Source of the DNA: a virus
Virus record (IMG/VR): IMGVR_UViG_3300023181_000025
Span: 1-64,000 of that record
Reading direction: 5' to 3' (one strand)
Length of the DNA: 64,000 nucleotides
The stretch's first letter is position 1. Each line of letters begins with the position of its first letter. Shown piece after piece: positions 7,710-36,729 of the stretch. Below the pieces are notes generated by a model. It did no database searches and was not told where the DNA came from. It was given only the letters and a program-made list of their open reading frames with translations. The translations under genes and the position numbers were made by a program.

Positions 7710-7736
7710 TTCTCTTTTTAATAAATTGTATGTAAT
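7710..7736 (+). promoter_or_regulatory. Putative late promoter P7747
   Basis: TTCTCT (7710-7715), 14 nt, then ATGTAAT (7730-7736), 10 nt before the ATG at 7747. A one-mismatch member of the TTC(A/T)CA-N13/14-GTGTAA family, at the head of the + strand late block. Confidence 0.45.
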
Positions 7737-7746
7737 ATCTTAATAT

Positions 7747-7944
7747 ATGAAGAGTGACACTATTTTGGCAAGTCCCGACGAATCGGGTTGGTATTGGTTT
7801 AAAAAGAACAAGAAGTCTGACGTAGTTATTGTTTTTGTAAATGATGACGGAGAGGCAACAGCGACGACAGAAGATGGCTTTTCTTATATTTTAGATGATT
7901 TAATTGGTCTATGGAGTCTAATTAACCTCCCGGACGATTTTTAA
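7747..7944 (+). CDS. Small hypothetical protein, 65 residues
   Basis: An acidic protein with a beta-rich pattern ('SGWYWFKKNKKSDVVIVFVNDDGEA'), resembling small phage proteins with a 'GWYWYR..GG....V.V' motif whose function is not known. It has no signal peptide or TM segment. It is the first gene of the rightward block, 17 bp before the putative spanin. Confidence 0.55.
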   Translation: MKSDTILASPDESGWYWFKKNKKSDVVIVFVNDDGEATATTEDGFSYILDDLIGLWSLINLPDDF

Positions 7945-7961
7945 TAAAATAAATTAATAAT

Positions 7962-8639
7962 ATGAAAAAAATAATTTTAGCCGCATTTTTCTGCGTATGC
8001 ACTTTTTCTTGCTCCCAAAAGGTTTCCCCTATTATTGGAATTCCTCCGGCCCCAGCTCAATCTCAGAGTGCCAGACCTAACGTGGAGAAAACCCAAGAGA
8101 GAATTGACAAGAGCCTTAATAATAATACCTCTATACAAAAAAATCTAAAGGAGCAAAATGACGCTCTCTTACAACAAAAAATTAATATTTCTGCGGCCCT
8201 TGCTCAAGCTGAAAAAATGAAGGAAAGGGCGCTTGCAAAACAAGCCATAACTGAATTAGAGGCCGAAAAGCACATTACGGAAATTAAAGCTATGGAAAGT
8301 CGCAATCTTTTTCTTGAGGGTATAAATAAAACAATGGCTGATACAGTTGTAGAACAAGCGTCTGAGTTACAGTCCGCCAAACAGGAGAACTCAAAAGCTC
8401 GGGAGCTTTTAATTTTAAGCGATAATGAAAAACTCGCACTTCGAGAACAAAATCTATTTTTATCTAAGTCTTTAGAGTTAAAGAATAAAGAAGTCGTGGA
8501 CCTTTCAGAAGAAAACAATAAAATTAACCAAAAATTAGCCAATGCAAAGGTATATAAAGGGTGGATTATTGGCGGAGCTTCATTGCTTTTAGTTGGAGGC
8601 GTGGTATTTGTCCTTTTAAAGATTTATAGACCTTTTTAA
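7962..8639 (+). CDS. Putative unimolecular spanin (u-spanin)
   Basis: A 225-residue protein with the topology of u-spanins such as T1 gp11. The lipoprotein signal peptide (residues 1-16) ends in a lipobox-like TFSC with the lipidated Cys at 17. A Pro-rich linker (23-38) precedes a long charged coiled-coil-like periplasmic region (40-195). One C-terminal TM helix (about 200-219) and a short IYRPF cytoplasmic tail complete it. U-spanins link outer and inner membranes and fuse them in the last step of lysis; T1 gp11 is much shorter as I recall it. No Rz/Rz1 pair is visible nearby. The neighbouring gene encodes a membrane PAS protein. The lipobox is not ideal (Phe-Ser-Cys). Confidence 0.65.
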   Translation: MKKIILAAFFCVCTFSCSQKVSPIIGIPPAPAQSQSARPNVEKTQERIDKSLNNNTSIQKNLKEQNDALLQQKINISAALAQAEKMKERALAKQAITELEAEKHITEIKAMESRNLFLEGINKTMADTVVEQASELQSAKQENSKARELLILSDNEKLALREQNLFLSKSLELKNKEVVDLSEENNKINQKLANAKVYKGWIIGGASLLLVGGVVFVLLKIYRPF

Positions 8640-8688
8640 TTATTATTTTGCATAAAAATACAAATTAAAGGTATTATTAAATAAGTAA

Positions 8689-9396
8689 ATGTTATTTGAC
8701 TTCCTTAAAGAACAGTCTGCAAATTTTAATTGGCTTCCCGAAGCTCTGGGCGTTCTCGCCGCAGTTTCTTTGGTGTTTAAGACGGTTAGAAAGTGGATTT
8801 TTGCAGCCTTTCGAGCCATATGCTCCTTTTTTACTTCCCCCTCAAAGACATATAAACTGGTCAATGATTTAACAACTAAATTGGCCAATGTTGAAGCAGT
8901 TTCAAATAATTCAGCAGGCAAAATACAAAATCTAGAAGATTTAATTGGTTATAATGGTGGGTCCGGCCTAATGGATAAGGTTGGTTATTTGCTAGGATAT
9001 CAGGCAAATGACTTTTGGTTTCGCGACCAACCCGGATTTATTTGTTCAGAACTAGGGGAAAACTTAGATACAACTCATTGCTATTGTAAGCTTTTAGGGG
9101 TTACTAATAGAACCGATTTAAATAATCGTAATTGGCAGGGCTTTGTAGATAAAGATCAGAACAAAGGCTATTACGAAGAATTTTTGGAAGTCGCCAAAAG
9201 ACGGGAAACATTTCGGCGCACTATTGGGTTTAAAGACTCAAATGGTAATGATACTGGAGTTTGGTTGGTTGTCGCTAATCCGATATCCTCAGATAAGGCA
9301 AAAGTGGCAAGATATATTGGATTATTGTATCCCTTTGACCCCACTTCAAAGCAAATAGCGGAAAAATATAAATGGCCGCTTATGCCTCCCTTATAA
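8689..9396 (+). CDS. Membrane-anchored PAS-domain protein
   Basis: A 235-residue protein. Residues 15-50 are hydrophobic, with one or two short membrane segments (LPEALGVLAAVSLVF and WIFAAFRAICSFF). Residues 55-85 look like a signalling-helix linker. Residues about 95-225 read as a PAS_3-like fold: 'FWFRDQPGFICSELGENL', 'CKLLGVTNRTDL..RNWQGFVDKDQ', 'ETFRRTIGFKDSNGNDTGVWLVVANPI' and 'ARYIGLLYPFD' follow the PAS core closely. PAS domains sense ligands, redox or light. There is no kinase or cyclase output, so the membrane part is the only obvious effector. Being next to a putative spanin, it could be a regulated holin or antiholin, which is inference only. Confidence 0.6.
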   Translation: MLFDFLKEQSANFNWLPEALGVLAAVSLVFKTVRKWIFAAFRAICSFFTSPSKTYKLVNDLTTKLANVEAVSNNSAGKIQNLEDLIGYNGGSGLMDKVGYLLGYQANDFWFRDQPGFICSELGENLDTTHCYCKLLGVTNRTDLNNRNWQGFVDKDQNKGYYEEFLEVAKRRETFRRTIGFKDSNGNDTGVWLVVANPISSDKAKVARYIGLLYPFDPTSKQIAEKYKWPLMPPL

Positions 9397-9404
9397 AAAT
9401 TCAT

Positions 9405-10142
9405 ATGAATAAAAAACAAGCTCGAAAACAGTCTAGTAATAAGGAAGATAAAAGTCCCTACGCTTTTCAGGGTAAAAAGCAAGATTTTAATATACCAATT
9501 ACAGAAAAAATACCTTGGACTGAAAAACAGTTGAGGTTTAATGAATTAGCTCAAAGTAAAGAATGCAAAATATTATTTGTGTCTGGTGTAGCGGGAACTG
9601 GAAAGTCGCTTTTAAGTGTCTATGCTGCCCTTAATGCAATTAATGCAAAGAAGGTCTCAGACTTGGTCTATCTTAGGTCCGCTGTAGAAAGCTCATCAAG
9701 TAAGCTTGGTTTTCTTCCCGGAACGGCGGAAGATAAGCTTTCTCCTTATCTTGAGCCCCTTATGGATAAACTTTCTGAGTTAATTGGCGAAGGGAATACA
9801 CAAGAAATCATAAAAAGACAATTAGTTTCCGCCCGGCCCATTAACTACTTAAGAGGTTGCCAATTTTCTGGTAAGTATGTTATTCTCGATGAAGCGCAAA
9901 ACCTCACTTTTACTGAAATGCAAACTTTTCTTACGAGGGTTGGCGAATTTAGTAAAGTTATTATTGCTGGTGACCCTATGCAAAGCGATATTGGAAACAG
10001 AAGCTGCTTTACAAAGGTTTTTGACTCGTTTGATAATGAAACTGCGCAAGAAAACGGAATCTATACCTTTAAATTTGGTAAAGAAGACATTGTTCGTTCT
10101 AAAATATTAAAATTTATTGTAGAAGTATTAGAAAATATTTAA
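9405..10142 (+). CDS. phoH: PhoH-like ATPase
   Basis: About 245 residues from ATG 9405; an in-frame ATG at 9372 would overlap the previous gene. Walker A GVAGTGKS is at residues 61-68, Walker B VILDEAQN at 159-166, and a sensor-like IIAGDPMQSD follows near 190. These are diagnostic of the PhoH family, which is common in phages and related to superfamily 1 helicase cores. The cellular role is unsettled; RNA-related ATPase or helicase activity is suggested for relatives. Residues 1-40 are basic and low-complexity. No Shine-Dalgarno is visible. Confidence 0.9.
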   Translation: MNKKQARKQSSNKEDKSPYAFQGKKQDFNIPITEKIPWTEKQLRFNELAQSKECKILFVSGVAGTGKSLLSVYAALNAINAKKVSDLVYLRSAVESSSSKLGFLPGTAEDKLSPYLEPLMDKLSELIGEGNTQEIIKRQLVSARPINYLRGCQFSGKYVILDEAQNLTFTEMQTFLTRVGEFSKVIIAGDPMQSDIGNRSCFTKVFDSFDNETAQENGIYTFKFGKEDIVRSKILKFIVEVLENI

Positions 10143-10151
10143 TAAAAATCA

Positions 10152-10177
10152 TTCTCATTAGTATTATTATAGTGTAT
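10152..10177 (+). promoter_or_regulatory. Putative late promoter P10188
   Basis: TTCTCA (10152-10157), 14 nt, then GTGTAT (10172-10177), 10 nt before the ATG at 10188. It matches the late family with the last -10 base changed. Confidence 0.5.
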
Positions 10178-10187
10178 AGAAAACATT

Positions 10188-10595
10188 ATGAAAGTATTAG
10201 AGAAGATAAGATTTCAAAAGGAATATGTCGAAAAGCGTATCAAGCCCAAGTGTTTTTTTAATCCAGATGGGTCTGTTGCGGTTTTCGCAATTACTCAAGA
10301 AGATCAGTTGGTTCAAAAGTGGGTTTATGAAAAGGGCGCTGCCTTGAAAAACGAAGGTTTTTCTTTAAATAGCGAGACATACGATCAAATTCTGAAATTT
10401 ATAATGGAAGGCGGCTCCTTTAACGAGGCTCCGCCTGAAATTATTTTAGAACCTGAGGAACAAAAGCCTATCGTTCAAGAAGGCGTTAAAACGCCTTCTC
10501 AAGGCAATCGCTCCGAGATTATTGAGTTGTTAAAATCTAAAAAACTTAAAGTGGCAGAACTTCAAGAGATTTTGATTAAAATTTTAGAATTATGA
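10188..10595 (+). CDS. Hypothetical protein, 135 residues
   Basis: No family recognised. Residues 1-75 look like a small alpha/beta domain, followed by a Pro/Glu-rich linker (80-108) and a short helical C-terminus (110-135, charged leucine-rich) that may oligomerise or bind a partner. Its stop overlaps the next start (ATGA at 10592-10595), so it is translationally coupled to the zinc-ribbon gene, two genes before the putative late sigma factor. A transcription-related accessory role is possible but unsupported by any motif. Confidence 0.6.
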   Translation: MKVLEKIRFQKEYVEKRIKPKCFFNPDGSVAVFAITQEDQLVQKWVYEKGAALKNEGFSLNSETYDQILKFIMEGGSFNEAPPEIILEPEEQKPIVQEGVKTPSQGNRSEIIELLKSKKLKVAELQEILIKILEL

Positions 10596-10855
10596 ACCTT
10601 TATTGTCAAGAATGCGGTTCCAAAAACGTTTATTGTGGAGCGGAAAATAAGCCTATTGAATGTGAAGGTTGCGGAAACTTTTTTGTTACGGTAAAAGTCT
10701 CTATTGGGAAAAAAAATAAAAAAGAGGTCGTGGCAAACACTGAATTGGATATTTTTAGCGTTAGTGATCTTGTTGATCTTGTTGAAATTTCAAATATCGA
10801 AGAACCTAACCAACCTCGTTCCAGAAAACGTGCGCCAAGACAAAAAAAGAAATAA
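10592..10855 (+). CDS. Zinc-ribbon protein upstream of the sigma-like gene
   Basis: An 87-residue protein. Four Cys in CxxC...CxxC (residues 6-9 CQEC and about 24-27 CEGC) form a zinc-ribbon-like N-terminus. The C-terminal third is acidic, then ends in a basic tail (RSRKRAPRQKKK). Such ribbons occur in small nucleic-acid-binding and transcription factors. It starts inside the previous stop codon and ends 1 nt before the sigma-like gene, so co-expression with it is near certain. A co-activator of late transcription is a reasonable hypothesis. Confidence 0.65.
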   Translation: MNLYCQECGSKNVYCGAENKPIECEGCGNFFVTVKVSIGKKNKKEVVANTELDIFSVSDLVDLVEISNIEEPNQPRSRKRAPRQKKK

Positions 10856-10856
10856 T

Positions 10857-11543
10857 ATGTTTTCATTCGAAGAGAAAATTGAAGAAATTAACTTAGAAAT
10901 CTCCAAGAGGAAAAATAAGTGGAGACTTAATGCTTTGTCTTATATAGATTTTGAGGACGTTTCTCAGATCTTAAGAATTCATATATTCAATCAGTGGTCT
11001 AAATGGGATCAGGCTCGACCTCTGGCTCAGTGGCTTAATAAATTGATATCTAATCAAATAATTAATCTAATTAGAAATAATTATAGCAAGGTTGCTCCTC
11101 CTTGTAATAGTTGCGCTTATAATATGGGCGGAAATTCCTGTTCTTATACCCCTAGCGGCGAGAGGTGTAACGATTGTCCGTTGTATAAGGCTTGGTCTAA
11201 GAAAAAGAAATCCGCTTACAACCTAAAGCTGGCTGTCTCTTCTGACGCCGAAGATTATATTGAACCAAAGTCTTCTTCTTCCCAATTTGGCGATCAAATT
11301 GATTATGACGCATGTATGGAAAAAATTCATCTTTATATGAAACCAAAACTTACTTCCGCTCAATGGCGAATTTATGAGATGCTCATTATTAAGGGCATGG
11401 CGGACGAAGAAGTCGCCACGATTCTAAAGCTTAAAACAGTTGAAGAAAAAAGGGGGGCAGGCTATAGGCATTTTGCCAAGATGAGGGAGATTTTTTCTGT
11501 TTTTGCGAAGCAAATCATGGAAGAACAAGATATTTTGTATTAA
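10857..11543 (+). CDS. Putative late RNA polymerase sigma factor with zinc cluster
   Basis: 228 residues from ATG 10857, which follows the previous stop by one base. The frame is open from 10704, but that start lies inside the zinc-ribbon gene. Residues 27-76 resemble sigma region 2 (FEDVSQILRIHIFNQW, KWDQARPLAQWLNKLISNQI, INLIRNNY). Residues 165-210 resemble the region 4 helix-turn-helix (LTSAQWRIYEMLIIKGMADE, EVATILKLKTVEEKRG). Between them is a Cys cluster (C83, C86, C95, C104, C107) that probably binds zinc and is not normal for sigma70 proteins. It resembles small phage late sigma factors such as T4 gp55 in size and layout, and would suit the TTC(A/T)CA/GTGTAA motif of this genome. It contains no region 3 or region 1. 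Confidence 0.62.
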   Translation: MFSFEEKIEEINLEISKRKNKWRLNALSYIDFEDVSQILRIHIFNQWSKWDQARPLAQWLNKLISNQIINLIRNNYSKVAPPCNSCAYNMGGNSCSYTPSGERCNDCPLYKAWSKKKKSAYNLKLAVSSDAEDYIEPKSSSSQFGDQIDYDACMEKIHLYMKPKLTSAQWRIYEMLIIKGMADEEVATILKLKTVEEKRGAGYRHFAKMREIFSVFAKQIMEEQDILY

Positions 11544-11552
11544 TTGTAAAAT

Positions 11553-13557: not shown

Positions 13558-13559
13558 TT

Positions 13560-16298
13560 ATGTGGACACCGGGATATCATTGTAGGACAGATAAGTTTAT
13601 CGACACAAATACTAAGTTGTCGGAGATTGAGGGGGACATAACTACAAAAGAGGCTCAGGTTGCTTTTGCGAAATTTTGTTGCGCGAACCCTCATTGGGCC
13701 GCAAAGATTTTAATGGGAATTGACTTATATCCTATTCAGGATGTCATGATTAGGGCGATGATGCAAAAGGATTTCTTTTTAGGTGTTTGTGGGCGGGGAT
13801 TCGGCAAATCTACAATTGCAGGGGTATTCTTGCCCTTATATGCTATATTTAATCCCGGAGTTAAGATAGGAATAACATCACAGACATTCCGTCAGTCGAG
13901 AAATATCTTCGAAAAAATCGAAGAAGCCATTGCCTCCCCCAAAGGAAAATTCCTAAAACAATGCCTGAATGGCCCCCCAAAGCACAACAATGATGCTTGG
14001 AGCATGAAATTTGGCACATCTGAAATTGTCGCCCTACCGTTAGGCTGTGTAACTGGAAATACCCTTATTCGAACTTCAAATGGTCTCAAACGCATCTCCG
14101 CGCTCGAACCAGAAATGCATACATATGAATACGGTGTAACTTATAAACCTTGGAAAAGGGGCTTATGTTGGGCCAATATAGATGAGCAGGTTGATACACT
14201 TGACGGTGTCTCACGATGCACAAATGTGCTATATAAAAGAGAAGAGGAGTGCCTTGAGCTTGTCTTGCGCGGGGGATTTGGCCTTCAGGGATCTAAAAAA
14301 CACAAGGTGTTGGTTTATTCTAAGGATGGAGAGCATCTATGGAAAGAATTATCACGAATTACACTAAAGGATTACGTCGCAATTGATGTCCGCGAAAGAT
14401 TCTCAAAACAACCAGAATTTAATTTAACTTCCGAAATTGGATATAAATACGGGTGCCAACAAGTATTTTCTAAAGCTACTGATGAAAGAATTTTAAACTG
14501 TTCTGAAAATTTCGGGCGTGGGTTCTTTGCGGGCATTTTCGAATCTGCCGGAGAATATTCGAGCAATGGATATGGTAATAAACCCTGTATTTCCGTAGCC
14601 ATGAAGAGTGAAGATATAGCTAAGGACGTTCAAATTGCGTGCCTGTCTTATGGTTTTGTAATTAAAAGAATGAAAAATAAACTATTTATTACTAAATTTA
14701 AACTTAGAAGTTTTCTTGAAAAGTTTCCCACTGTAAAGAAGAATTTAAAAAGTATACTCCCGGATATTCCCACGCCTTCTTATGGAGCCATTAGCTCTTC
14801 GGAAGCAGAAAAATATGACAAGGGGTTTATGTTTTGCAAAATCATTAGCAAAAAGAAGCTGGGGAAAGTTCCAGTATATGATTTGCGCGTCCCTGCTTAT
14901 AATAACTATATCTCGAATGGCTTCGTCTCCCATAATTCCGGGGATAAAATTCGGGGCTATCGTTTTAATTTGCTTGTTATTGACGAACTTTTGCTTCTTT
15001 CCGAGAAGGTTATTAATGAAGTTTTAATGCCTTTCATGGCTATTCAGGCTAACCCCCGCGAAAGGCAAAAAATAAGGGATGAAGAAACGGCTATGATTAA
15101 TGCGGGGGTCATGACTGAAGACGAACGCACAGTATTTTCTAGCAATAAACTTATAGGTCTTACTTCCGCGAGCTATCAATTTGAATATCTATACAAGATG
15201 TTCCAAGATTACAAAGACCAAATTTGTGACAAAGAAGCCAAGAATGTTTCACATGCCGTAATGCAACTGTCTTGCGAAATAGCTCCAATTGGTCTTTATG
15301 ACGAAAAGAATATTGAAATGGCTAAAAAAACCTTTAGTCAGTCGCAATACGACCGAGAGTATATGGCGCATTTTACCGGAGATAGCTCTGGATTCTTTTC
15401 CGCCAAGTCTTTACACGCTGTATCCTTAGAAAAGGGAGAGTTTCCAACTGTTTTGGTTAAAGGGGATAGAGTAAAAGACTATATATTGGCTATTGACCCT
15501 AACTATGACTCATCAGAAACCTCTGACGATTTCGCTATGTGCCTAGTAGAATTGGATCATGACGCTAGAACCGCAGTGATGGTTCACGGCTATGCGCTTG
15601 CAAGCTGCACCCTTCAAGAACGCATGGGATATGTAAAATATCTATTTGATAATTTTAATATTATATATATGATTGTAGATAGAGCGGCGGGAGCTAAATT
15701 TATTAAGGATATTAATGATTTAGAAGTTCTTGATTTCAAACTTGGCATCTTTGAGGCCGATTTTGATACCTTCAGTGAGGAAGAGTTGTTTGAAGCTCGA
15801 AAAAGCTATTCTAATGACACAAAAGTGAAAAATATAGTTCACGCGCAAAACTTCTCAGCCCAATGGATTAGATACGCTAACGAAACTCTGCAAGGGGCTA
15901 TAGAAAATAGAACAATCATGTTTGGTTCGCCTGTGGACGCCGAAGAAATATCTGTTGATTCATTGGCCCCGATAATTAAAGAGCTTAAATTTGACGATAC
16001 CGAATATAAGAATGATAGGGACAGTCTGAAAATGAAATTGGGCGATTTCGTAGATAGGCAAGCTATAATTATTGGAAAAACAAAACGCCAATGCGCTTTA
16101 ATTGAGGCGAGTAGTGGGGGCGGGGCAATGAAATTTGACTTGCCCCAATCCCTTAAAAAGCAAACTGGTCCCGATAAGGCCCGTAAAGATAGCTATTCTG
16201 CCTTATTGTTGGCCAACTGGGGTAAAGAATGCTATTTTAATATGATGAGCGCGCCTGTTAAGAAAAAAAATAGGATTTTACCTAGATTTTTGGTGTAA
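13560..16298 (+). CDS. terL: Large terminase (TerL) precursor with intein
   Basis: A 912-residue precursor. ATPase: Walker A GVCGRGFGKS (75-84) and Walker B LLVIDE (471-476, after the intein). C-terminal RNase H-like nuclease: ILAIDPNYDSS near 640, IVDRAAG near 700, and KMKLGDFVDR with DSYSALLLANW near the end. Residues 163-459 are an intein with a C-terminal HN and +1 Ser, so the spliced enzyme has about 615 residues, normal for TerL. TerL powers DNA translocation into the prohead and makes the headful or site-specific cut. It is followed 9 bp later by the portal gene. Confidence 0.93.
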   Translation: MWTPGYHCRTDKFIDTNTKLSEIEGDITTKEAQVAFAKFCCANPHWAAKILMGIDLYPIQDVMIRAMMQKDFFLGVCGRGFGKSTIAGVFLPLYAIFNPGVKIGITSQTFRQSRNIFEKIEEAIASPKGKFLKQCLNGPPKHNNDAWSMKFGTSEIVALPLGCVTGNTLIRTSNGLKRISALEPEMHTYEYGVTYKPWKRGLCWANIDEQVDTLDGVSRCTNVLYKREEECLELVLRGGFGLQGSKKHKVLVYSKDGEHLWKELSRITLKDYVAIDVRERFSKQPEFNLTSEIGYKYGCQQVFSKATDERILNCSENFGRGFFAGIFESAGEYSSNGYGNKPCISVAMKSEDIAKDVQIACLSYGFVIKRMKNKLFITKFKLRSFLEKFPTVKKNLKSILPDIPTPSYGAISSSEAEKYDKGFMFCKIISKKKLGKVPVYDLRVPAYNNYISNGFVSHNSGDKIRGYRFNLLVIDELLLLSEKVINEVLMPFMAIQANPRERQKIRDEETAMINAGVMTEDERTVFSSNKLIGLTSASYQFEYLYKMFQDYKDQICDKEAKNVSHAVMQLSCEIAPIGLYDEKNIEMAKKTFSQSQYDREYMAHFTGDSSGFFSAKSLHAVSLEKGEFPTVLVKGDRVKDYILAIDPNYDSSETSDDFAMCLVELDHDARTAVMVHGYALASCTLQERMGYVKYLFDNFNIIYMIVDRAAGAKFIKDINDLEVLDFKLGIFEADFDTFSEEELFEARKSYSNDTKVKNIVHAQNFSAQWIRYANETLQGAIENRTIMFGSPVDAEEISVDSLAPIIKELKFDDTEYKNDRDSLKMKLGDFVDRQAIIIGKTKRQCALIEASSGGGAMKFDLPQSLKKQTGPDKARKDSYSALLLANWGKECYFNMMSAPVKKKNRILPRFLV
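14046..14936 (+). mobile_element. Intein in TerL with degenerate LAGLIDADG domain
   Basis: 297 residues (TerL 163-459). It starts with Cys163 in CVTGNTLIRT (block A) and ends with VPVYDLRV...ISNGFVSHN before Ser460, matching the classical N- and C-terminal splicing blocks. The middle holds one LAGLIDADG-like motif, FAGIFESAG (323-331), in which the catalytic second Asp is Ala330 and the first Asp is Glu. No second motif is obvious. Splicing should work; the homing endonuclease is probably inactive. The insertion sits between Walker A and Walker B of the ATPase. Confidence 0.9.
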
Positions 16299-16307
16299 AC
16301 AAGCCTT

Positions 16308-18137
16308 ATGAAGGTTACAGAAGAAGTTTCTACAGCAATTAAGGTAAAACCTAAGATGGTATATGCCTCGGGAGAAAAGCCCTCCAGAGGTCGTGGCGGT
16401 CATTCATCCTCTTCAGGTGGAGATATAAGCGGCCTTTTATGCAACATTAAAGACGGTGTGTCGCCTTTTCGTCACCAATCAGGTGACGTAGATGTAAAAG
16501 AAGCTATAGAATTGTGCCAAAAAGCTTACTGGAACGTATCTATTTTTAAGTTGACTATAGATATCATGTCTGAGTTTGCCAATTCCAACATTCATTTTAA
16601 AGGGAAAAACAAGTCCACCGTTAAGTTTTTTGAGAATTGGGACAAAAAAATAAATGGATCTAATCTAAGGGATCAGTTTTTTCGCGAACTCTTCAGAAGT
16701 AGTAATATATTCCTATATAGATTGAAGGGTCAAATTTCTAGAGTCGGGAAAGGTGCATTTGTTGACATTCCTTTAAAATACATTGTATTGAATCCTGCGG
16801 ATATGCGGGCCGTTTCTTCTGCTTCTTTTAGCGAAGGGGCTAACTATAGCAAGGTTCTAAATCCTTATGAAGTTACTGTTTTGAGGGAGAGCACAGACAT
16901 TAAGAACATAGAATTAAAAAAATCTTTACCGCTAAAAACACAAAAAGAAATAGAAGATGGAATTTCTGAAGTTTCCATACCAATTCCTACTGATGATTTA
17001 GTATCTATATTCTTTAAGAAACAAGATTACGAAGCTCTTGCGGTTCCTTTGTATTTTCCTGTATTATTTGATATAAATTTAAAATTAGAATTCAAAAAAG
17101 CAGAACAAATTATTGCCCGCGCATGTGAATATATGATCCTGTTGATTAATGTGGGGGACAAAGATGATGGGACAGATCAGGCTGTTGTGGAGAGTATTGA
17201 GCAACTCTTTTCTACCGAGAGTGTGGGTCGTGTCATGATTACGGACTGGTCAACTAAAATGTCCTTTGTCATGCCTGAGCTTGATAAAATCTTAGGGCCT
17301 GAAAAATACGTGGCCGTAAACCAAGATATTGCGAACGGTTTAATGAATATCTTCTTTGGAGATTCTAAATATGCCGACTCCATGGTTAAGATAAAAGTTT
17401 TCTTAGAAAGATTGAAAGAAGCCAGAAAAATTTATTTAAGTCAGTTTTTAATCCCAGAAATGGACGCTATTTGTGAAAAAATGGGGTTTAGGGAGTGCCC
17501 TGAGCCATTCTTTGAGGAAATTAATTTAAATGATGAATTGGAATATAAAAAGATTTACAACCGTTTGTCGGAACTTGGAATTCTTACCCCAGAAGAGGTT
17601 CTTAAAGCTTATGATACGGGAGTCTTGCCGGAGCCATATGATAGCGTCATATCTCAAGAGGCTTTCAAGAAACAGAAGGACGATGGTTTATATATACCTG
17701 TTTCTTTGGCTCAAGTTGAAGACCCCAATGCAACAATTCCCGGACAATCTGGCAGACCTACGGGCACACCTCAAAAACAAAAACAAAAAAAGGTTACTCC
17801 CGTTGGAGCTTCTGCTACATTCTCTGCCGAAAAACTTGCCGAGGTATCAAAAACAGCAAATCTATTGATCGCAGCCGCCACCGTAGAGGTTAAATCTAAA
17901 TTCAAAGTCGAACGAATTAGTAAAAAGAATAAGGACTTTGCAAAAAATATAGCGTTTACAATTATGCAAAACGAAGAAATCGACAATTGGTTTGTAAAAC
18001 TTCGTGATTATTTGGACAATCCTACTCAATTGGGGCCTATTTATAATGAGGTTGCTGATTTGGCTGGTTATCATCAAATTGATTTTAATAGTGCCGCACT
18101 TCTTTATCAGGCTAGAATAACTTCTCAAAGTGAATAA
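16308..18137 (+). CDS. Portal protein
   Basis: A 609-residue protein directly after TerL, as expected for a portal. It has the family's mixed alpha/beta wing ('VKEAIELCQKAYWNVSIFKLTIDIMSEF', with a beta-rich part near 130-200), a long helical stem/crown region (about 270-400, including 'IANGLMNIFFGDSKYADS') and a charged C-terminal tail. The portal is the dodecameric DNA channel of the head and docks TerL. Residues 20-45 are a Gly/Ser-rich linker, and the C-terminal 100 residues are Lys/Pro/Gln-rich. It lacks the SPP1 or T4 variants' obvious motifs, so the call rests on position, size and pattern. Confidence 0.8.
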   Translation: MKVTEEVSTAIKVKPKMVYASGEKPSRGRGGHSSSSGGDISGLLCNIKDGVSPFRHQSGDVDVKEAIELCQKAYWNVSIFKLTIDIMSEFANSNIHFKGKNKSTVKFFENWDKKINGSNLRDQFFRELFRSSNIFLYRLKGQISRVGKGAFVDIPLKYIVLNPADMRAVSSASFSEGANYSKVLNPYEVTVLRESTDIKNIELKKSLPLKTQKEIEDGISEVSIPIPTDDLVSIFFKKQDYEALAVPLYFPVLFDINLKLEFKKAEQIIARACEYMILLINVGDKDDGTDQAVVESIEQLFSTESVGRVMITDWSTKMSFVMPELDKILGPEKYVAVNQDIANGLMNIFFGDSKYADSMVKIKVFLERLKEARKIYLSQFLIPEMDAICEKMGFRECPEPFFEEINLNDELEYKKIYNRLSELGILTPEEVLKAYDTGVLPEPYDSVISQEAFKKQKDDGLYIPVSLAQVEDPNATIPGQSGRPTGTPQKQKQKKVTPVGASATFSAEKLAEVSKTANLLIAAATVEVKSKFKVERISKKNKDFAKNIAFTIMQNEEIDNWFVKLRDYLDNPTQLGPIYNEVADLAGYHQIDFNSAALLYQARITSQSE

Positions 18138-18146
18138 AAAGTGTAA
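18122..18146 (+). promoter_or_regulatory. Putative late promoter P18159
   Basis: TTCTCA (18122-18127), 13 nt, then GTGTAA (18141-18146), 12 nt before the ATG at 18159. It lies over the end of the portal gene. A full match to the late-type consensus. Confidence 0.6.
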
Positions 18147-18158
18147 ATAAAAATTATT

Positions 18159-19631
18159 ATGGCACATAGAGATTTTAAATATACGAGACGGTTTGAGTCA
18201 AAGGCTAGATTTGACTTGGGAACTTGGAGGGAGGCTTCGGCTAGCAAGTCAATTATTGCTAAAGCTAGCTTAGAGGATTTGAGATCCTTACTTCCGGCTA
18301 ATGAGGTTATTGAAGACGACAACGATCTTCTTTATACCGCTTTTAATGCCGCTGTTGTAAACCTTATCAATGCAAACGATCATGGTATTGGGACCGAAAC
18401 CGCTCTTGCCGTATCAAAATACTTTGTAAAAAGGCACTTAAATCTTGAACACGACCGCAATAGTGTGGTTGGCCATATTATTACACAGGGGTTTAGTTCT
18501 TTCGGAGATAATAAAATCCTTCAGGCCGAAGAGATTTCGGGGAATGACCCTTTTAATATTTGCTTGGGAGGGATTGTTTATAGATATGTGCGAGACTATG
18601 TTGCCCAATTTATTGAAGAGGCCGCTGACGAAAAAAGCCCTTGGTATCAAGAGGTAGCGTCGTCTTGGGAAATTGGATTTAATGATTTTGATATTGTTCT
18701 TGGCTCTAAAAGGGTAAAGGACGCAGAGATAATTTCAAATCCAGAACAAGTTAAAGAATTTACTCCGCTATTGGCTTCTGAGGGCGGAGAAGGCTTTACT
18801 AAAGACGGGGTTCCAGTTTATATGCTAATTAAAGGTGATGATGCAAGGCCTGTTGGTTGCGCCTTTACTACAACTCCTGCTGCTGCGGTTAAAGGAGTCT
18901 TAGTTGCATCGTCTAAACTAGAAAGTCTTGAAAATAAAAATTCTCAAGAAATTATAACTCTTTCCAGCTCAATTTTGGAGAAATTGGCAGAAACGAATAA
19001 AACAATTGAAAAACTAAGCATTTCTACTTCACAAAATAAAATAATTAATGTAACTAAAAATAGCATGAAAATTAAATCTATTGACCAAATTACTCCAGAC
19101 TTCTTGAAAGAAGCTGAAGCAAGCGACGTTAGAGATTTCATTACTCAAACACTTGCAGATAAAGCTTCCGAATTTTCTACTCAAGTTTCCGAAAAGGAAA
19201 CCGAGAAGAAAGGCATTCAGTCCGAATTGGAAGAAGCTAAAGCAAAGGTCACTGAATTGGAATCTAAAGTTGCTTCTCTTAATGATATCATCTCCGCTAA
19301 GGAAAAGGAAGAAGCTTTCAATGTCCGTATGGATGAGATTGATTCTACCTTTAAGCTTACTGAAGAACAAAAAAAATCAGTTGCCTCAAAAATCAAAACT
19401 CTCGACAGCGATGAGTCCTATAAGACTTGGAAGAAAGAATTCTCTCTTTTCGCTACCTTTAAGGGCGACGAAGTTGATGAAACTGAAAGTGACGACGAAG
19501 AAGACGAGGTCAAGAACCTAAAAGAAGCCAAGGCTTCCAAAGGAAAACTTCCTAATGCCGCTGATTCGAAAGCAAATAGTGATATTGACGAATTGGCAAG
19601 TGGATTAGAAATCCTTTCTTTCAGAAAATAA
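18159..19631 (+). CDS. Prohead protease / scaffold fusion
   Basis: A 490-residue protein between portal and capsid. Residues 1-290: prohead-protease-like region with HLNLEHDRNSVVGHI (near 91-105), which resembles the catalytic His region (conserved 'xHD...VxG' context) of phage maturation proteases. The remaining catalytic residues cannot be assigned. Residues 303-490: Lys/Glu-rich coiled coil and an acidic tail, typical of scaffolds. An in-frame ATG at 19065 (Met303) is preceded by a late-type promoter element (19028-19053), so the scaffold could also be made alone, like lambda Nu3. Scaffold is removed during head maturation. Confidence 0.68.
   Translation: MAHRDFKYTRRFESKARFDLGTWREASASKSIIAKASLEDLRSLLPANEVIEDDNDLLYTAFNAAVVNLINANDHGIGTETALAVSKYFVKRHLNLEHDRNSVVGHIITQGFSSFGDNKILQAEEISGNDPFNICLGGIVYRYVRDYVAQFIEEAADEKSPWYQEVASSWEIGFNDFDIVLGSKRVKDAEIISNPEQVKEFTPLLASEGGEGFTKDGVPVYMLIKGDDARPVGCAFTTTPAAAVKGVLVASSKLESLENKNSQEIITLSSSILEKLAETNKTIEKLSISTSQNKIINVTKNSMKIKSIDQITPDFLKEAEASDVRDFITQTLADKASEFSTQVSEKETEKKGIQSELEEAKAKVTELESKVASLNDIISAKEKEEAFNVRMDEIDSTFKLTEEQKKSVASKIKTLDSDESYKTWKKEFSLFATFKGDEVDETESDDEEDEVKNLKEAKASKGKLPNAADSKANSDIDELASGLEILSFRK
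19028..19053 (+). promoter_or_regulatory. Putative internal late promoter in the protease/scaffold gene
   Basis: TTCACA (19028-19033), 14 nt, then ATGTAA (19048-19053), 11 nt before the in-frame ATG at 19065. The first 9 bases (TTCACAAAA) are shared with the elements at 24184 and 36704. Located inside coding sequence. Confidence 0.5.
19065..19631 (+). CDS. Possible nested scaffold product (internal start)
   Basis: In-frame Met303 of the 18159-19631 gene, giving 188 residues that cover exactly the scaffold-like coiled coil and acidic tail. The start follows a late-type promoter element by 11 nt, a spacing similar to that at 18141-18159. No Shine-Dalgarno is visible, as for many genes here. 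Nested scaffolds are known in lambda (Nu3 in C). The call is inference. Confidence 0.4.
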   Translation: MKIKSIDQITPDFLKEAEASDVRDFITQTLADKASEFSTQVSEKETEKKGIQSELEEAKAKVTELESKVASLNDIISAKEKEEAFNVRMDEIDSTFKLTEEQKKSVASKIKTLDSDESYKTWKKEFSLFATFKGDEVDETESDDEEDEVKNLKEAKASKGKLPNAADSKANSDIDELASGLEILSFRK

Positions 19632-19653
19632 TAGATAAAGACAAGAACAAAAT

Positions 19654-20235: not shown

Positions 20236-20243
20236 TCCTATAT

Positions 20244-21368: not shown

Positions 21369-21396
21369 ACACAAGAAATAAAAACTTAAAACATTG

Positions 21397-21423
21397 ATGG
21401 GGAGCTTTTCGCTCCCCATTTTT
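21397..21423 (+). terminator. Rho-independent terminator after the capsid gene
   Basis: A 9-bp stem (ATGGGGAGC at 21397-21405 with GCTCCCCAT at 21411-21419), 5-nt loop TTTTC and a T-run. It is 29 bp after the capsid stop and immediately before a late promoter, separating capsid from connector genes. Confidence 0.9.
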
Positions 21424-21424: not shown

Positions 21425-21450
21425 TTCTCATAATTATAATTAAAGTGTAA
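21425..21450 (+). promoter_or_regulatory. Putative late promoter P21459
   Basis: TTCTCA (21425-21430), 14 nt, then GTGTAA (21445-21450), 8 nt before the ATG at 21459. With a start site about 7 nt beyond the -10, the mRNA would be nearly leaderless. It directly follows a terminator. Confidence 0.6.
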
Positions 21451-24183: not shown

Positions 24184-24208
24184 TTCACAAAATAACAAAT
24201 AAGTGTAA
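24184..24208 (+). promoter_or_regulatory. Putative late promoter P24236
   Basis: TTCACA (24184-24189), 13 nt, then GTGTAA (24203-24208), 27 nt before the ATG at 24236. A full consensus match. The longer leader has no clear Shine-Dalgarno. Confidence 0.6.
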
Positions 24209-25354: not shown

Positions 25355-25379
25355 TAAATAATTATAAATATTTCAGACG

Positions 25380-25404
25380 AGCCCGCAAGAAATTGCGGCT
25401 TTTC
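25380..25404 (+). terminator. Rho-independent terminator after the tail-tube gene
   Basis: An 8-bp stem with one bulge (AGCCcGCAA at 25380-25388 with TTGCGGCT at 25393-25400), GAAA tetraloop and a TTTCT tract. It lies 26 bp after the tube stop and immediately before the next late promoter. Confidence 0.8.
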
Positions 25405-25416
25405 TGTTTGGCGGGG

Positions 25417-25441
25417 TTCACATTTTTGTTAATTCGTGTAA
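25417..25441 (+). promoter_or_regulatory. Putative late promoter P25462
   Basis: TTCACA (25417-25422), 13 nt, then GTGTAA (25436-25441), 20 nt before ATG 25462, with an AGGAATAAGG ribosome-binding-like stretch in the leader. Confidence 0.6.
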
Positions 25442-25461
25442 CCATAATCAGGAATAAGGTT

Positions 25462-25731
25462 ATGAACGACTATAGAAGTATTGTCAAGGACGCGGCGAAA
25501 AGAAAATTAGTTGATCTAACTAAGGCCTTTTTAGAAATTATTGACGAATTAAAGAAAGAAGACGGCGAAAAACTTAAAAATTTTTCTTCTATTTCATCTA
25601 AATGGATGAATAGCGAGGAAGTTGAGGTTTTGATGCCGTTTTTAGCGTTAATGACAGACTGTAAAAAAGATATTCTTCGAAAAAGGATACTTGATAAAGC
25701 TGGCGAACTTAGTCGGGAATTAGATAATTAA
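25462..25731 (+). CDS. Small tail protein, 89 residues
   Basis: 89 residues from ATG 25462. The frame is open upstream to 25393, but that part lies across the terminator and promoter and is rejected. The purine-rich AGGAATAAGG precedes this start. The protein is helical and charged (residues 5-35 Lys/Glu/Asp-rich, 50-85 amphipathic). It is placed between tail tube and chaperone-like genes; no family recognised. Confidence 0.6.
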   Translation: MNDYRSIVKDAAKRKLVDLTKAFLEIIDELKKEDGEKLKNFSSISSKWMNSEEVEVLMPFLALMTDCKKDILRKRILDKAGELSRELDN

Positions 25732-25741
25732 AGGAACAAGG

Positions 25742-27314: not shown

Positions 27315-27320
27315 GTGTAA
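27315..27320 (+). promoter_or_regulatory. Possible late -10 element before the tape measure gene
   Basis: TTTAGTGTAAATATAG matches the late -10 element, but the -35 region at N13/14 (AAGTTA) does not match. A good ribosome-binding site (GGAAAGGAATT) follows before ATG 27347. Weaker than the other members. Confidence 0.35.
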
Positions 27321-33204: not shown

Positions 33205-35076
33205 ATGTTGGCTTTTAAACACGCTCAAACTCTTTCTTTGTCCCATAAATTGGAATATTTGGGGGACGCTTTTGCCTATAGGGCGGTTCAGGATATTGTT
33301 ATTCGGGGCAAAATGATTAGTGACCGGGCTTATGATAATTCATTGGGGAGTTATTTTTCTATTGTATATACTGACCAATCCGGGGACAATCAATTTGTGG
33401 CTGTGGAAGGAGAAGATTATGATTTTGTAGATGATGATTGGATAGTTGAGAATAAATGGTTTCCTATTGAGAGTGCCCAAAACATTGAGACTCCAGAGCA
33501 GAATTCATTTTTTGATATTACACCTTTTGCATCTACAGTTTCTGAAGGTGGAACTATTTCGGGGGCAGACCATTATTCTCCACTTTACGATATTTGGGAT
33601 GGGGCTAATAAAATAAAGAAAGCCTTTGGAGAATTTCAAGAAATAATTTTAAATGGTGTTTCTTTGGGGTCTGGTAGAGTTGTGTCTGCAAGTTTTCCAG
33701 AGTCTAGAGACTTTCGAAAAGGCGAATATGAAATAACTTTAGAAATTTATAAACCAGTCGATCTATATAATTGGGAAGGAACTGGTTATTTTGATAAGCC
33801 AGACCCCGAGCTAATGAAGCTTGTTCAAAATCTTGATAGCACTTTTTCCTTCGACAAAGATAAAAACAATGTAATTTCTTATTCTAAAAATTTAGGGTTT
33901 AGTTTGATTAACTCAGGATTAAGCGAAGAGAGCTACTTAAATACTGCAAAGACCATTGCCTCGGGACTCTTTTATAAAGACCCAAATTTTAATAATTTTA
34001 TATCTCAGTATCCTGATTTTTATGAAAATAATGGAAATCGGGTGTTTAACGAAAGTTATAATCCATTAGAGGGTTCATTTTCCTTTTCGGAAATTTTCCA
34101 AGGTCCAACTAGTGGAAAAAAATATTTTTGGGACGTATCTTACTCGCTCACAACTCAACAAAATGGCGCAACTAGGGCTACTGAGAACGGAACTATTCGT
34201 GGCGTTTCGAAGAATAGTTTTGAAGTCGCTAATTCTGGTTACAATTCAATAAAGGGTTCGCGGGAACAAAGAATTAAAGATTTTTATGGATCTTACAAGG
34301 ATTCTTTGTGTGAAGATACTCTTATATTTAAAGCAGCTTCAAAAGCTAGCGATATTCCCGCAGGAATTATTACATATTCATTTAATTATGAAGAAGATCC
34401 TTTTGGCGAACTATGCTATGATATTGTGAGGGCTTCCGATATTCAAAAAGATGCAGACGGTGAATACACACTAACAGAAAATGGTTCTGTTAGAAATACT
34501 TGTGAATTAACTACTTCTGGAAAGTTACAAAAAGCTGTAGATTATTTTAAAAATAATATAGAAACTGGAATTAAAAGTAGGTTATACTCTGACTATGAGG
34601 CGGCCTCTTTTGGTTGTGGATGTAGCGGGGCCGCAAATATAGCAGATTTATCCCTAATTTCCACCGAAGAGGAGTATTCTAGCTTTCGAGGCGCATTTGA
34701 CTATGCGTATACATACAAAACGAGTTGCGGATTTGCTATTAATGATTATTTTTTAACGTCAAAAGAAAGGCAGGTCAAAGACACTCTTCATAATGTTGGG
34801 TTGCAAATAACCCCCTACAGCGGAGAGATAGCACAAAAACAAAATACTTCCTCTTTGATAGAGGAGACTCAGACAATTTCTGTAATTGGGAGAGAAGAAA
34901 ATATAGAAATAGAGCAATATCTGGAAGAGTGTATATCTAATATTACTCCGCCGGTTTCCTCTACATTTTTTATGAATAATGCTAGTTATTTTTTTGATCC
35001 TGATAACTCAAAAATGGAAATGAGTGTAATTTACCAATACACCGGATTTAGAAACTTCCTAGATATTAATGTTTAA
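33205..35076 (+). CDS. Distal tail protein (paralogue 1)
   Basis: A 623-residue beta-rich protein following the tape measure by 5 bp, where distal-tail (Dit-like) genes lie. It contains a GSGRVVSASFPES...YEITLEIYK segment near residues 158-190 and a VSYSLTTQ...ENGTIRGVS segment near 310-335. The next protein has similar segments in the same order, suggesting duplication. It has a Cys-rich stretch (FGCGCSG). It overlaps the next gene by 8 nt. Confidence 0.6.
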   Translation: MLAFKHAQTLSLSHKLEYLGDAFAYRAVQDIVIRGKMISDRAYDNSLGSYFSIVYTDQSGDNQFVAVEGEDYDFVDDDWIVENKWFPIESAQNIETPEQNSFFDITPFASTVSEGGTISGADHYSPLYDIWDGANKIKKAFGEFQEIILNGVSLGSGRVVSASFPESRDFRKGEYEITLEIYKPVDLYNWEGTGYFDKPDPELMKLVQNLDSTFSFDKDKNNVISYSKNLGFSLINSGLSEESYLNTAKTIASGLFYKDPNFNNFISQYPDFYENNGNRVFNESYNPLEGSFSFSEIFQGPTSGKKYFWDVSYSLTTQQNGATRATENGTIRGVSKNSFEVANSGYNSIKGSREQRIKDFYGSYKDSLCEDTLIFKAASKASDIPAGIITYSFNYEEDPFGELCYDIVRASDIQKDADGEYTLTENGSVRNTCELTTSGKLQKAVDYFKNNIETGIKSRLYSDYEAASFGCGCSGAANIADLSLISTEEEYSSFRGAFDYAYTYKTSCGFAINDYFLTSKERQVKDTLHNVGLQITPYSGEIAQKQNTSSLIEETQTISVIGREENIEIEQYLEECISNITPPVSSTFFMNNASYFFDPDNSKMEMSVIYQYTGFRNFLDINV

Positions 35077-36700
35077 AATTCTTTATAATGGCGACGAGGT
35101 TTTCGACGGTTTATCCCCTACGCCTTTCGTCGAAAGGAACTCAGAAAGCATATACAACTCTAAAAAGTATATGGAGATGGATTCTATTACCCTTAATGGG
35201 GTAATTACGGGAGAATGCGTGCAAAATGATAATGAATTTGAGGGATTTTACAATAAAGCCAGCCTTTTAATAGATAGGTTTTCAAAATCTTTTGGAGACC
35301 TTGCGATTCTTGAGGAGCTACCGGACCATTTATCTTATCTATATTCAGGGCGAGCTATTGTGCGAGCTATTGATTTCCCAGAAAGTTATTTTGCAGGATT
35401 ATTGCCTTATTCTATAACTTTTGACCTCTACAAAGAAGAGGATTTTATAAATTATGGAATTTTAGATCCAAGCCAAGAAATTCAATTTCAACAAAATGAT
35501 AATGGCACCGTTACGATTAATAAATCTACATCCGCTAGGGGCTTAAATACAGATTTAAAGGCGTTAGATAACGCACGTAGTTTTGTCCAGCAATTGAAAG
35601 GTTGGAACTCTTCTTTGTCTCCACTATTCATTGACTCCACCAACGTTTCCGAGGCTCTTTTAATTAAAGAGGATGAAGAAGTTGACCGTGCCAACTGTGT
35701 TTATAGCCTTAACGAAACTTGGTTATATGACCCATACGGTCAACAAACTGAAAATTCTTTCTATCGAGTTACAACAACAATAAACTCGGGGGCAGAGGGA
35801 AATGCTATTTCCCTAGAGGGAACCCTAGAAGGCCGAGCTATGTCTTCGTGGTTAGACTTAAGACAGGAATTTACTGAAATAAATTTTTTGCAGATTGCTG
35901 AAGAAGCTTATTTTGATGCGGGTTTTGAAGGCGAGCTTTTTATAAGACCTATAGGCAAAAGCATATCGGAAAATGCCAACGAGAAAAGCATATCTTTTTC
36001 TATGGAATATTCTGATACTATACTAGAAGATCCTTATATAACAGATAATTTTAGGGTTACTTGGGACATACAAAATAATAAAAAATGCGCATCAGCACAA
36101 GTTTTAATTTCTTCTATTGATGAGTGTTATTCTGCTAGATGGAATAAAGTCAATGATTTTTACGAGACTTTTCAATTAAAAGATTGGATTGATCAAAGAT
36201 GGCAAGACTACGGATATGAGGGAAATCTTTCCAATTCTTTCCAATCTAAGTCTGTTTCATTTGATCAAAAATCTTCCACCATTAGTATTTCTGCGACCTT
36301 GTGTGAAAAAAAGATTGTAATCCCTGCACATTTAGACGACATAAATTATAATGTGCAAATTATTCCCTCTATGCCTACTTATATTCCTTTTCAGGGTTTA
36401 GATTGTGGGGGGGCATTCACAGTTCAAAAGCTCAAGGGCCTGAAAAGACAATCTATTACAATTCAAGGAGACGCCCTGATATCTGACTGTTCTACCAAAG
36501 AGCAGGCTTTAGAGAGTTTAAAACTATATATAAACTCATTAAAATTTCAATATTTAAATGGGGGAGATGCTTTTATGAGTGGAAACGATATACGTTACGG
36601 GTCTGGTGCGGCTTCTAAAAAGATATATTTTAGTTTTTCTTGGAATGAAAAAAAATCCACAAGTTTATTTGGAGAAGAGCTTCTAAATTCCCCTATTTAA
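35069..36700 (+). CDS. Distal tail protein (paralogue 2)
   Basis: A 543-residue beta-rich protein, starting inside the previous gene's 3' end. YSGRAIVRAIDFPES...YSITFDLYK (near residues 91-123) and FYRVTTTINS...EGTLEGRAMS (near 230-258) correspond to segments in the previous protein. It probably forms part of the tail tip or baseplate ring. No catalytic motif is visible. Confidence 0.6.
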   Translation: MFKILYNGDEVFDGLSPTPFVERNSESIYNSKKYMEMDSITLNGVITGECVQNDNEFEGFYNKASLLIDRFSKSFGDLAILEELPDHLSYLYSGRAIVRAIDFPESYFAGLLPYSITFDLYKEEDFINYGILDPSQEIQFQQNDNGTVTINKSTSARGLNTDLKALDNARSFVQQLKGWNSSLSPLFIDSTNVSEALLIKEDEEVDRANCVYSLNETWLYDPYGQQTENSFYRVTTTINSGAEGNAISLEGTLEGRAMSSWLDLRQEFTEINFLQIAEEAYFDAGFEGELFIRPIGKSISENANEKSISFSMEYSDTILEDPYITDNFRVTWDIQNNKKCASAQVLISSIDECYSARWNKVNDFYETFQLKDWIDQRWQDYGYEGNLSNSFQSKSVSFDQKSSTISISATLCEKKIVIPAHLDDINYNVQIIPSMPTYIPFQGLDCGGAFTVQKLKGLKRQSITIQGDALISDCSTKEQALESLKLYINSLKFQYLNGGDAFMSGNDIRYGSGAASKKIYFSFSWNEKKSTSLFGEELLNSPI

Positions 36701-36703
36701 AAG

Positions 36704-36729
36704 TTCACAAAATACCTTATTTGCTGTAA
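36704..36729 (+). promoter_or_regulatory. Putative late promoter P36756
   Basis: TTCACA (36704-36709), 14 nt, then CTGTAA (36724-36729), 26 nt before the GTG start at 36756. The leader carries a strong purine-rich ribosome-binding stretch (AGGAAAGGTAAGG). Confidence 0.55.

Follow-up and report, generated by a model that had tools for sequence, protein, structure and literature searches.

The DNA analysed here, a 64,000-nt window of the virus record IMGVR_UViG_3300023181_000025, carries a recurrent two-box sequence in front of several structural genes, which raises the question of whether this sequence is a promoter and what would read it. An earlier note had described seven copies, and all of them were found at the positions claimed, each with 13 or 14 nt between its two boxes and at distances of 8 to 27 nt from the start codon (gene calls and start codons are simple predictions). 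The seven putative late elements are as follows.

7710..7735, plus strand: TTCTCT-N14-ATGTAA, 11 nt upstream of ATG 7747
10152..10177, plus strand: TTCTCA-N14-GTGTAT, 10 nt upstream of ATG 10188
18122..18146, plus strand: TTCTCA-N13-GTGTAA, 12 nt upstream of ATG 18159 (protease-scaffold gene)
21425..21450, plus strand: TTCTCA-N14-GTGTAA, 8 nt upstream of ATG 21459
24184..24208, plus strand: TTCACA-N13-GTGTAA, 27 nt upstream of ATG 24236
25417..25441, plus strand: TTCACA-N13-GTGTAA, 20 nt upstream of ATG 25462, with AGGA in the leader
36704..36729, plus strand: TTCACA-N14-CTGTAA, 26 nt upstream of GTG 36756

The second box also occurs without a first box.

16293..16298, plus strand: GTGTAA, 9 nt upstream of the portal ATG 16308
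27315..27320, plus strand: GTGTAA, 26 nt upstream of the tape-measure ATG 27347, with AAAGGA in the leader
7674..7679, minus strand: GTGTAA, preceding a minus-strand run of genes (7657..3105)

The GTGTAA copies upstream of the portal and tape-measure genes had been missed in the earlier note, as had an internal element at 19028. Its remark that several elements sit immediately downstream of terminators held in part. In a scan of positions 7500 to 27000, the association was clear at 21425, weak at 25417 (stem 25383-25398) and absent at the other elements examined.

21396..21420, plus strand: intrinsic-terminator-like hairpin, directly 5' of the element at 21425

Across the 211-kb record, the exact form TTCWCA-N13/14-GTGTAA occurs six times (four copies in the window and two on the minus strand beyond it), compared to 0.07 to 0.1 in sequences shuffled by Markov models of order 1, 3 and 5, and a looser form occurs 10 times against 1.2 to 1.5 expected. 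The comparison with shuffled DNA that had been proposed as a check thus revealed a clear enrichment. Together with permuted hexamers and strand tests, the shuffles rule out a chance product of AT-rich DNA. When spacers of 0 to 40 nt were scanned, six of eight TTCWCA/GTGTAA pairs had a spacer of 13 or 14. In a dyad search covering all 348 upstream regions, the early TTGACA promoters prevailed, with CTCA-N12/13-AGTGT in second place. Ranking of hexamers without any prior motif placed AGTGTA/GTGTAA first or second at 7 to 12 nt upstream of ATG in G000, G004, G005 and G001, and AGTGTA/GTGTAT first at the same distance in G009; the T4 control yielded Shine-Dalgarno-like words. Distant groups agree with this signal. 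A second spacer class for the sites without a first box (TTCTAA-N17 and similar) was not supported, as TTC(A/C/T)C is not enriched at N16/17.

The register of the boxes required a correction, because the natural -10 begins at TAA, within what had been taken as the second box. Read in this way, the sequence is TTCWCA-N16/17-TAAnnn with (G)TG directly upstream of the -10, and the late promoter would comprise a -35 box TTC(A/T)CA, a spacer of 16 to 17 bp with (G)TG as its last bases, and a -10 box beginning with TAA. This amounts to a modified sigma70 plan, and the statement that the element does not resemble sigma70 promoters was therefore too strong: TTCACA differs from TTGACA by one base and the spacing is equal. 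Measured against the canonical TTGACA-N16-18-TATAAT, geometry alone matches, since the element has TTCWCA and a TAA start. A T at -7 is present in only 3 of 26 TG-bearing sites.

The element recurs upstream of orthologous genes in related uncultured phages. Among 85 related loci, 12 exact matches were found on the strand of the query gene, none on the opposite strand and none in the shuffle. A box precedes 27 of 31 orthologues of those window genes that have a full element or GTGTAA, versus 9 of 78 orthologues of other structural genes (p ~7e-14). The copy at 7710 is weak by sequence alone, with 2.5 such scores expected by chance, and is supported by the orthologues of gene 7747, which are preceded by TTCCCA-N14-CTGTAA (G003, 64225) or GTGTAA (G002, 795). 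Exact elements were found at the orthologues of gene 10188 (TTCTCA-N14-GTGTAA in G002) and gene 18159 (G004/L017). Gene 21459 has orthologous elements in G004, G006 and G005, and gene 24236 in G005 and G001, with TACACA-N14-GTGTAA in G004, where TTCACT-N13-GTGTAA is found at the orthologue of gene 25462 and GTGTAA at that of gene 36756. GTGTAA or GTGTAT lies upstream of the portal gene in all six relatives, and GTGTAA upstream of the tape-measure orthologues in G004, G006 and G001. The first box is missing at many GTGTAA sites and has largely been lost in distant relatives, and no conserved -35 was discernible by eye in the distant groups. No relatives of the major capsid protein were found among 50,697 phage records searched. 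A portal scan aimed at the host, with one genome per species and 84,980 species, yielded no relative, and the tRNAs gave no hint of the host. From the enrichment, the fixed spacing and the conservation, we infer that the element has promoter activity.

An additional copy of the element lies within a structural gene.

18159..19631, plus strand: protease-scaffold-like fusion gene, assigned by domain layout, gene order and alignment
19028..19053, plus strand: putative internal late element TTCACA-N14-ATGTAA, inside 18159-19631 and 11 nt upstream of the in-frame ATG 19065
19065..19631, plus strand: nested in-frame open reading frame, predicted from alignment to encode a free scaffold protein

Gene 18159-19631 has no Pfam protease match. 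The internal element was present in all seven orthologous genes examined and sits in a poorly alignable linker, where the DNA is conserved and the protein is not: the linker codons differ (ACT, AGT, AAT or ATT), and all supply the terminal T that builds TTCACA. An internal promoter at this site would allow the nested scaffold protein to be produced separately from the protease. In phage lambda, the 3' end of the protease gene C doubles, in the same reading frame, as the scaffold gene Nu3, and Nu3 is made from an internal translation start. The nested in-frame arrangement is shared; the conserved two-box element at the nested start sets the present phage apart. Internal transcription and in-frame products are also annotated for T4 gene 17.

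The earlier note had placed the element before structural genes. This was borne out, although not exclusively, as in other parts of the genome it also lies upstream of antisense homing-endonuclease genes. The early (right) arm has GTGTAA upstream of 8 of 13 minus-strand genes versus 1 of 269 plus-strand genes (p = 1e-11), and the minus-strand genes concerned include homing-endonuclease, lysis and fibre genes, which would share the late signal. For T4, endonuclease-specific promoters are described as middle or late and never early (PMC2988022). No promoter was found for the antisense T4 gene segD (PMC2988022), whereas the antisense endonucleases here have a putative one.

Early-type promoters have the form TTGACA-N16/17-TAnnnT, and 32 of 35 are located on the plus strand of the right arm. 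Both classes have equal geometry and end about 5 to 10 nt upstream of ATG. These similarities, and the single base that separates TTCACA from TTGACA, would fit ordinary, weaker host sigma70 promoters that act late through template copy number or an activator. We consider this improbable, since the classes differ in three linked features (C for G in the -35, TG before the -10 and no T at -7), with TG at 26 of 47 sites with the C-type -35 versus 5 of 95 with the G-type (p = 4e-11), are cleanly separated by strand and region, and are accompanied by a family-wide phage sigma factor.

As both promoter classes end so close to ATG, many mRNAs are expected to have little or no leader. Transcription would start about 6 to 8 nt downstream of GTGTAA, and ATG usually follows 7 to 12 nt past this box, so that most late mRNAs are predicted to be (near-)leaderless. 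The start 7 nt past the second box assumed in the earlier note already implies this, a consequence that was not drawn out there. In phiEco32 and 7-11, sigma-dependent transcription starts 6 to 9 bp from the element (PMC8948821).

The same distances would also suit a translation-initiation signal, in which case GTGTAA would be a ribosome site of a non-Shine-Dalgarno type and not a -10 box: at 40 sites it lies 7 to 12 nt from ATG, often with no -35 box, and overall Shine-Dalgarno use is low (9%). This reading is very improbable, as the two boxes keep a fixed spacing of 13 or 14, early genes have TAnnnT in place of GTGTAA at equal distance, and GTGTAA is nearly absent from the right-arm plus-strand genes, which need translation too. 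Moreover, some GTGTAA sites lie 19 to 30 nt from the start, partly with Shine-Dalgarno-like leaders: AGGA, GGAG or GAGG occurs in 6 of 19 leaders of 19 to 30 nt versus 0 of 40 leaders of 7 to 12 nt (p = 6e-4). Some of the longer-leader late mRNAs may thus carry a ribosome-binding site.

A candidate reader of the promoter is encoded in the window.

10857..11543, plus strand: 228-aa sigma-70-family protein with region 2, a predicted helical C-terminal domain and four invariant cysteines

The gene start was fixed by alignment, and identity across the family is 36 to 55%. Sigma70_r2 was detected in all 24 family members (best 1.5e-7), with the window copy at 2e-4, under the curated cut-off; 19 of the 24 match the sigma factor family phrog_1740. 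The gene is encoded in the same phage in all nine records. A Foldseek search with the AlphaFold model (pTM 0.40) returned nearly exclusively sigma factors as top matches, with a best E of 0.011 and none reaching 0.001. Region 4 has no Pfam match, which counts against this protein because a -35 box needs region 4; four C-terminal helices are predicted. Gene 10188, behind the element at 10152, opens a plus-strand run that reaches the sigma-like gene, suggesting possible self-feedback. Synthesis solely from its own promoter would leave the first synthesis of the sigma unexplained.

A second sigma-like gene (71466-71972) has a strong early-type promoter, TTGACA-N17-TATCTT, 8 nt upstream of ATG, and its product would therefore be made before the late genes. 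The protein matches Sigma70_r2 (E 1e-4; the G004 homologue at 5e-9, over the cut-off). It could read the late promoter, as could a host alternative sigma, leaving the 10857 protein with another role. We regard this as rather unlikely, because, within the set of six records searched, the gene was found in G000 and G004 alone, and further viral contigs had no copy, whereas the 10857 sigma and GTGTAA are family-wide; the absence elsewhere is weak evidence, as the other records are fragments.

The 10857-11543 protein is the best candidate reader. The element very probably serves as a late promoter specific to the phage, most likely read by host core RNA polymerase that the 228-aa sigma would redirect to it. 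The original proposal of such a promoter is strongly supported by the enrichment, by strand and spacing, by the conservation at orthologues and by the gene content; it needed revision in the register of the second box and the dissimilarity to sigma70.

The T4 late promoter consists of a -10 box only, TATAAATA, and depends on gp55, gp33 and the clamp. A promoter of this type was rejected, as the sequence differs and a -35 box is present in the close clade. A phage multisubunit RNA polymerase of the phiKZ/AR9 kind was likewise rejected: PF00562, found in all 14 controls, had no match in G000 and G004, two long records that are possibly not complete, and this model can miss divergent phage subunits. 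The single-subunit polymerase model PF00940 gave no match, nor did it in the control.

The arrangement resembles that of phiEco32 and 7-11, with a recurrent element upstream of structural genes on the same strand and a sigma gene in the same phage. Phage 7-11, a phiEco32-like Salmonella phage to which no sequence link was found, encodes the sigma-70-family protein SaPh711_gp47, which acts with host core RNA polymerase on two-box late-gene promoters; its consensus, GTAAtg-(16)-aCTA, differs from TTCWCA/GTGTAA (PMC8948821). A near-leaderless rule, a nested scaffold promoter and use by endonucleases are not described for 7-11 in the accessible part of PMC8948821. In phiEco32, the phage sigma gp36 recognizes middle/late promoters that have a -10-like core with TGTA, and such a promoter lies upstream of the sigma gene; the phiEco32 promoter is a single element, tAATGTAtA, without a -35, and gp36 lacks region 4 (PMC8948821, PMC4331800).

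For the family, we tentatively propose that the early and late programmes both run on (near-)leaderless mRNAs, from two promoter classes of the same geometry that are split only by a phage sigma whose cysteine module directly follows region 2, at the place where the (G)TG upstream of the -10 would be read. The late signal would also act within the protease gene, yielding a separate scaffold, and on antisense homing endonucleases. The findings would amount to a promoter code for a family of uncultured giant phages, with early and late genes separable by sequence alone; they also name a sigma candidate and put forward leaderless translation as the rule in a large phage. The putative scaffold promoter within the protease gene, where the DNA is kept and the protein changes, would be an unusually clear natural test of promoter function, as would the putative late promoters upstream of the antisense homing-endonuclease genes.

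The virus record to which the window belongs is 211,168 bp long; the window is its initial 64 kb, and the remaining sequence was fetched too. Genes of the record were called with a simple codon-usage caller, and all start codons are predictions. G+C content at positions 1-2000 is 47%, against 37.5% for the whole record. The earlier note had described a two-box element, TTCWCA-N13/14-GTGTAA, in front of at least seven structural or late genes, and all seven elements that it listed lie exactly where it placed them. A pattern scan of the 211,168 bp yielded six exact copies, and a further element, absent from that note, was found within a gene:

18122, + strand: exact element, in the window
21425, + strand: exact element, in the window
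24184, + strand: exact element, in the window
25417, + strand: exact element, in the window
172276, minus strand: exact element, beyond the window
188776, minus strand: exact element, beyond the window
19028: additional element within gene 18159-19631; an in-frame ATG (19065) follows after 11 nt
16293: GTGTAA without first box, before the portal gene
27315: GTGTAA without first box, before the tape-measure gene

The proposed enrichment over shuffled DNA and the stable spacing were both borne out. Shuffles gave 0.07 to 0.1 exact matches compared with the 6 observed, and a looser pattern occurred 10 times in the whole record (1.2 to 1.5 expected from shuffles), each time with an ATG or GTG 8 to 27 nt downstream. 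When spacers of 0 to 40 were scanned, 6 of 8 box pairs were spaced by 13 or 14. On the sequence evidence as a whole, the element is likely a phage-specific late promoter. Because several tests were refined after inspection of the data, p-values should be taken as indicative; this concerns the strand test and the hexamer ranking least.

For a test independent of the noted consensus, every hexamer was ranked by its enrichment 7 to 12 nt before ATG. AGTGTA and GTGTAA took ranks one and two in the phage itself (G000) and in the related uncultured phage records G004 and G001, GTGTAA ranked first in G005, and AGTGTA/GTGTAT were top in G009; G006 had too few genes for ranking. In distant groups (~36 to 47% portal identity), AGTGTA or GTGTAA again ranked first. 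The same ranking applied to 50 kb of T4 as a control returned Shine-Dalgarno-like words, with GTGTAA not among the enriched ones. The first box, as TTC[ACT]CA at spacing 13 or 14, preceded NTGTAA at 20 of 143 sites near starts versus 6 of 1,138 elsewhere.

The major capsid protein had no match among 50,697 phage records and the terminase only distant ones, so the family has no close cultured relatives represented there. A portal scan of viral contigs revealed 80 loci. A scan of 85 related loci, 1.1 Mb in all, gave 12 exact matches on the query-gene strand, none on the opposite strand and none in one shuffle, although several loci are near-copies of one another and independent cases number fewer than 12. 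Longer records were fetched behind six loci, with locus L015 used as G002; G003 and G004 are near-copies and were counted once in orthologue comparisons. For each of the genes starting at 7747, 10188, 18159, 21459, 24236 and 25462, one or more relatives carry a two-box element before the orthologue, and the G004 orthologue of 36756 has GTGTAA upstream. Among orthologues of window genes that bear GTGTAA or the complete element, 27/31 have the box upstream, compared with 9/78 orthologues of other structural genes; portal and tape-measure genes were moved into the element-bearing set post hoc, and before this the figures were 18/22 versus 18/87 (p = 2e-7).

Gene 18159-19631 had no protease match in Pfam; from gene order and domain layout, we read it as a protease-scaffold fusion. 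In G000, G002, G004, G006 and G001, its internal element lies in the linker joining the conserved N-terminal domain to the coiled-coil C-terminal part, always with a spacer of 14 and an in-frame ATG 8 to 14 nt downstream. With TTCACA-N14-TTGTAA in G005 and TTCACC-N14-GTGTAA in G009, it is kept in 7/7 genomes; it was not seen in more distant protease genes. The surrounding protein aligns poorly. Before TCA, the codon specifies T, S, N, N or I, and before GTA it specifies N, T or H; the final base is T in every case. Conservation at this site is of DNA, not protein.

Early-type promoters (TTGACN-N16/17-TAnnnT) end 6 to 9 nt before ATG/GTG in 34/49 cases in G000 and 17/28 in G004, with almost none at 0 to 5. 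Examples are as follows:

71429, 85437, 101204 and 192187: early-type promoters, right arm of G000
L105-L113: stretches of G004 with further early-type promoters

With the phiEco32 element, transcription starts 6 to 8 nt after it (PMC8948821). If transcription here starts 6 to 8 nt after the -10 box, these early mRNAs would begin at or just before AUG, and so look leaderless. In this register, the predicted late element becomes TTCWCA-N16/17-TAAnnn, its TAA being immediately preceded by (G)TG. Sites with the late-element -35 (C-type) and the early-type -35 (G-type) have spacing and ATG distance in common but differ in features that go together. TG precedes the -10 box at 26/47 C-type versus 5/95 G-type sites (p = 4e-11), and T at -7 occurs at 64/95 G-type versus 3/26 C-type sites with TG. 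In six genomes, GTGTAA was found 7 to 12 nt before ATG at 40 sites, compared with ~4.5 predicted by permuted hexamers, and at none 13 to 15 nt before ATG. AGGA, GGAG or GAGG occurs in 6/19 leaders of 19 to 30 nt versus 0/40 of 7 to 12 nt, a contrast that is partly trivial, as short leaders have little room for these words. It agrees better with a promoter than with a ribosome site, without being proof. Near-leaderless mRNAs are probable on this sequence evidence.

The right arm of G000 (71-211 kb) is nearly all + strand, and 32/35 early-type promoters 5 to 10 nt before ATG lie on its + strand. GTGTAA 6 to 30 nt upstream was found for 8/13 minus-strand versus 1/269 plus-strand right-arm genes (p = 1.3e-11). 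Minus-strand genes and runs of this arm include:

188147-188778, minus: HNH endonuclease-like, matching HNH models below cut-offs
171743-172267, minus: HNH-like by cysteine/histidine pattern (by eye), no HNH model match
100167, minus: LAGLIDADG endonuclease, match above cut-off
85411 to 83342, minus: run with GIY-YIG endonuclease (above cut-off), ending in phage lysozyme (just below)
88832 to 86062, minus: fibre-like run

The trend is weaker in G004 (4/19 minus-strand versus 3/158 plus-strand genes, p = 0.003), where 3 of the 4 GTGTAA-bearing minus-strand genes are endonuclease-like or adjoin such genes. Promoters dedicated to endonucleases in T4 belong to the middle or late classes, never to the early one (PMC2988022). 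The antisense HNH-like genes 171743-172267 and 188147-188778 abut tRNA-Met (171668-171742) and tRNA-Leu (188068-188150), respectively, recalling T4 segB inside its tRNA cluster.

Outside the window, 20 tRNAs were found, including one with a CTA anticodon (91899-91973; L003:8599-8673), called Pyl by ARAGORN and possibly an amber suppressor. A recombinase/methyltransferase-like segment (92355-93691), adjoined by a TnpB-like gene (all names by eye), shares 95 to 100% protein identity with G004 96439-97271 in phages otherwise ~50% alike, and appears to be a mobile element acquired by recent transfer. The terminase large subunit (13560-16298) carries an intein with a LAGLIDADG domain, which is matched at the intein position in the G004 orthologue as well; it seems to be missing from the G002 gene, which is shorter.

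Two sigma-like genes are candidates for reading the late element. The product of gene 10857-11543, 228 aa long, is present in 9/9 records searched and in 37 distinct ORFs of the portal and sigma-scan loci, usually ~5 kb before portal. Sigma70_r2 matched all 24 aligned members and a PHROG sigma-factor family 19 of 24. AlphaFold gave a model of moderate quality (pLDDT 78.5, pTM 0.40); its top Foldseek matches are nearly all sigma factors, but with a best E of 0.011. C83, C86, C95 and C107 are invariant just past region 2, and we speculate that they bind zinc and help to read (G)TG. The second gene, 71466-71972 (L002:7966-8472), is sigma-70-like, has an early-type promoter directly upstream and has a homologue in G004 (64419-64874). 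Neither of the two long records, which may be incomplete, yielded a beta-subunit gene. Since the 10857 protein tracks the motif through the family, we somewhat favor it over the 71466 protein as the sigma factor that would read the late element.
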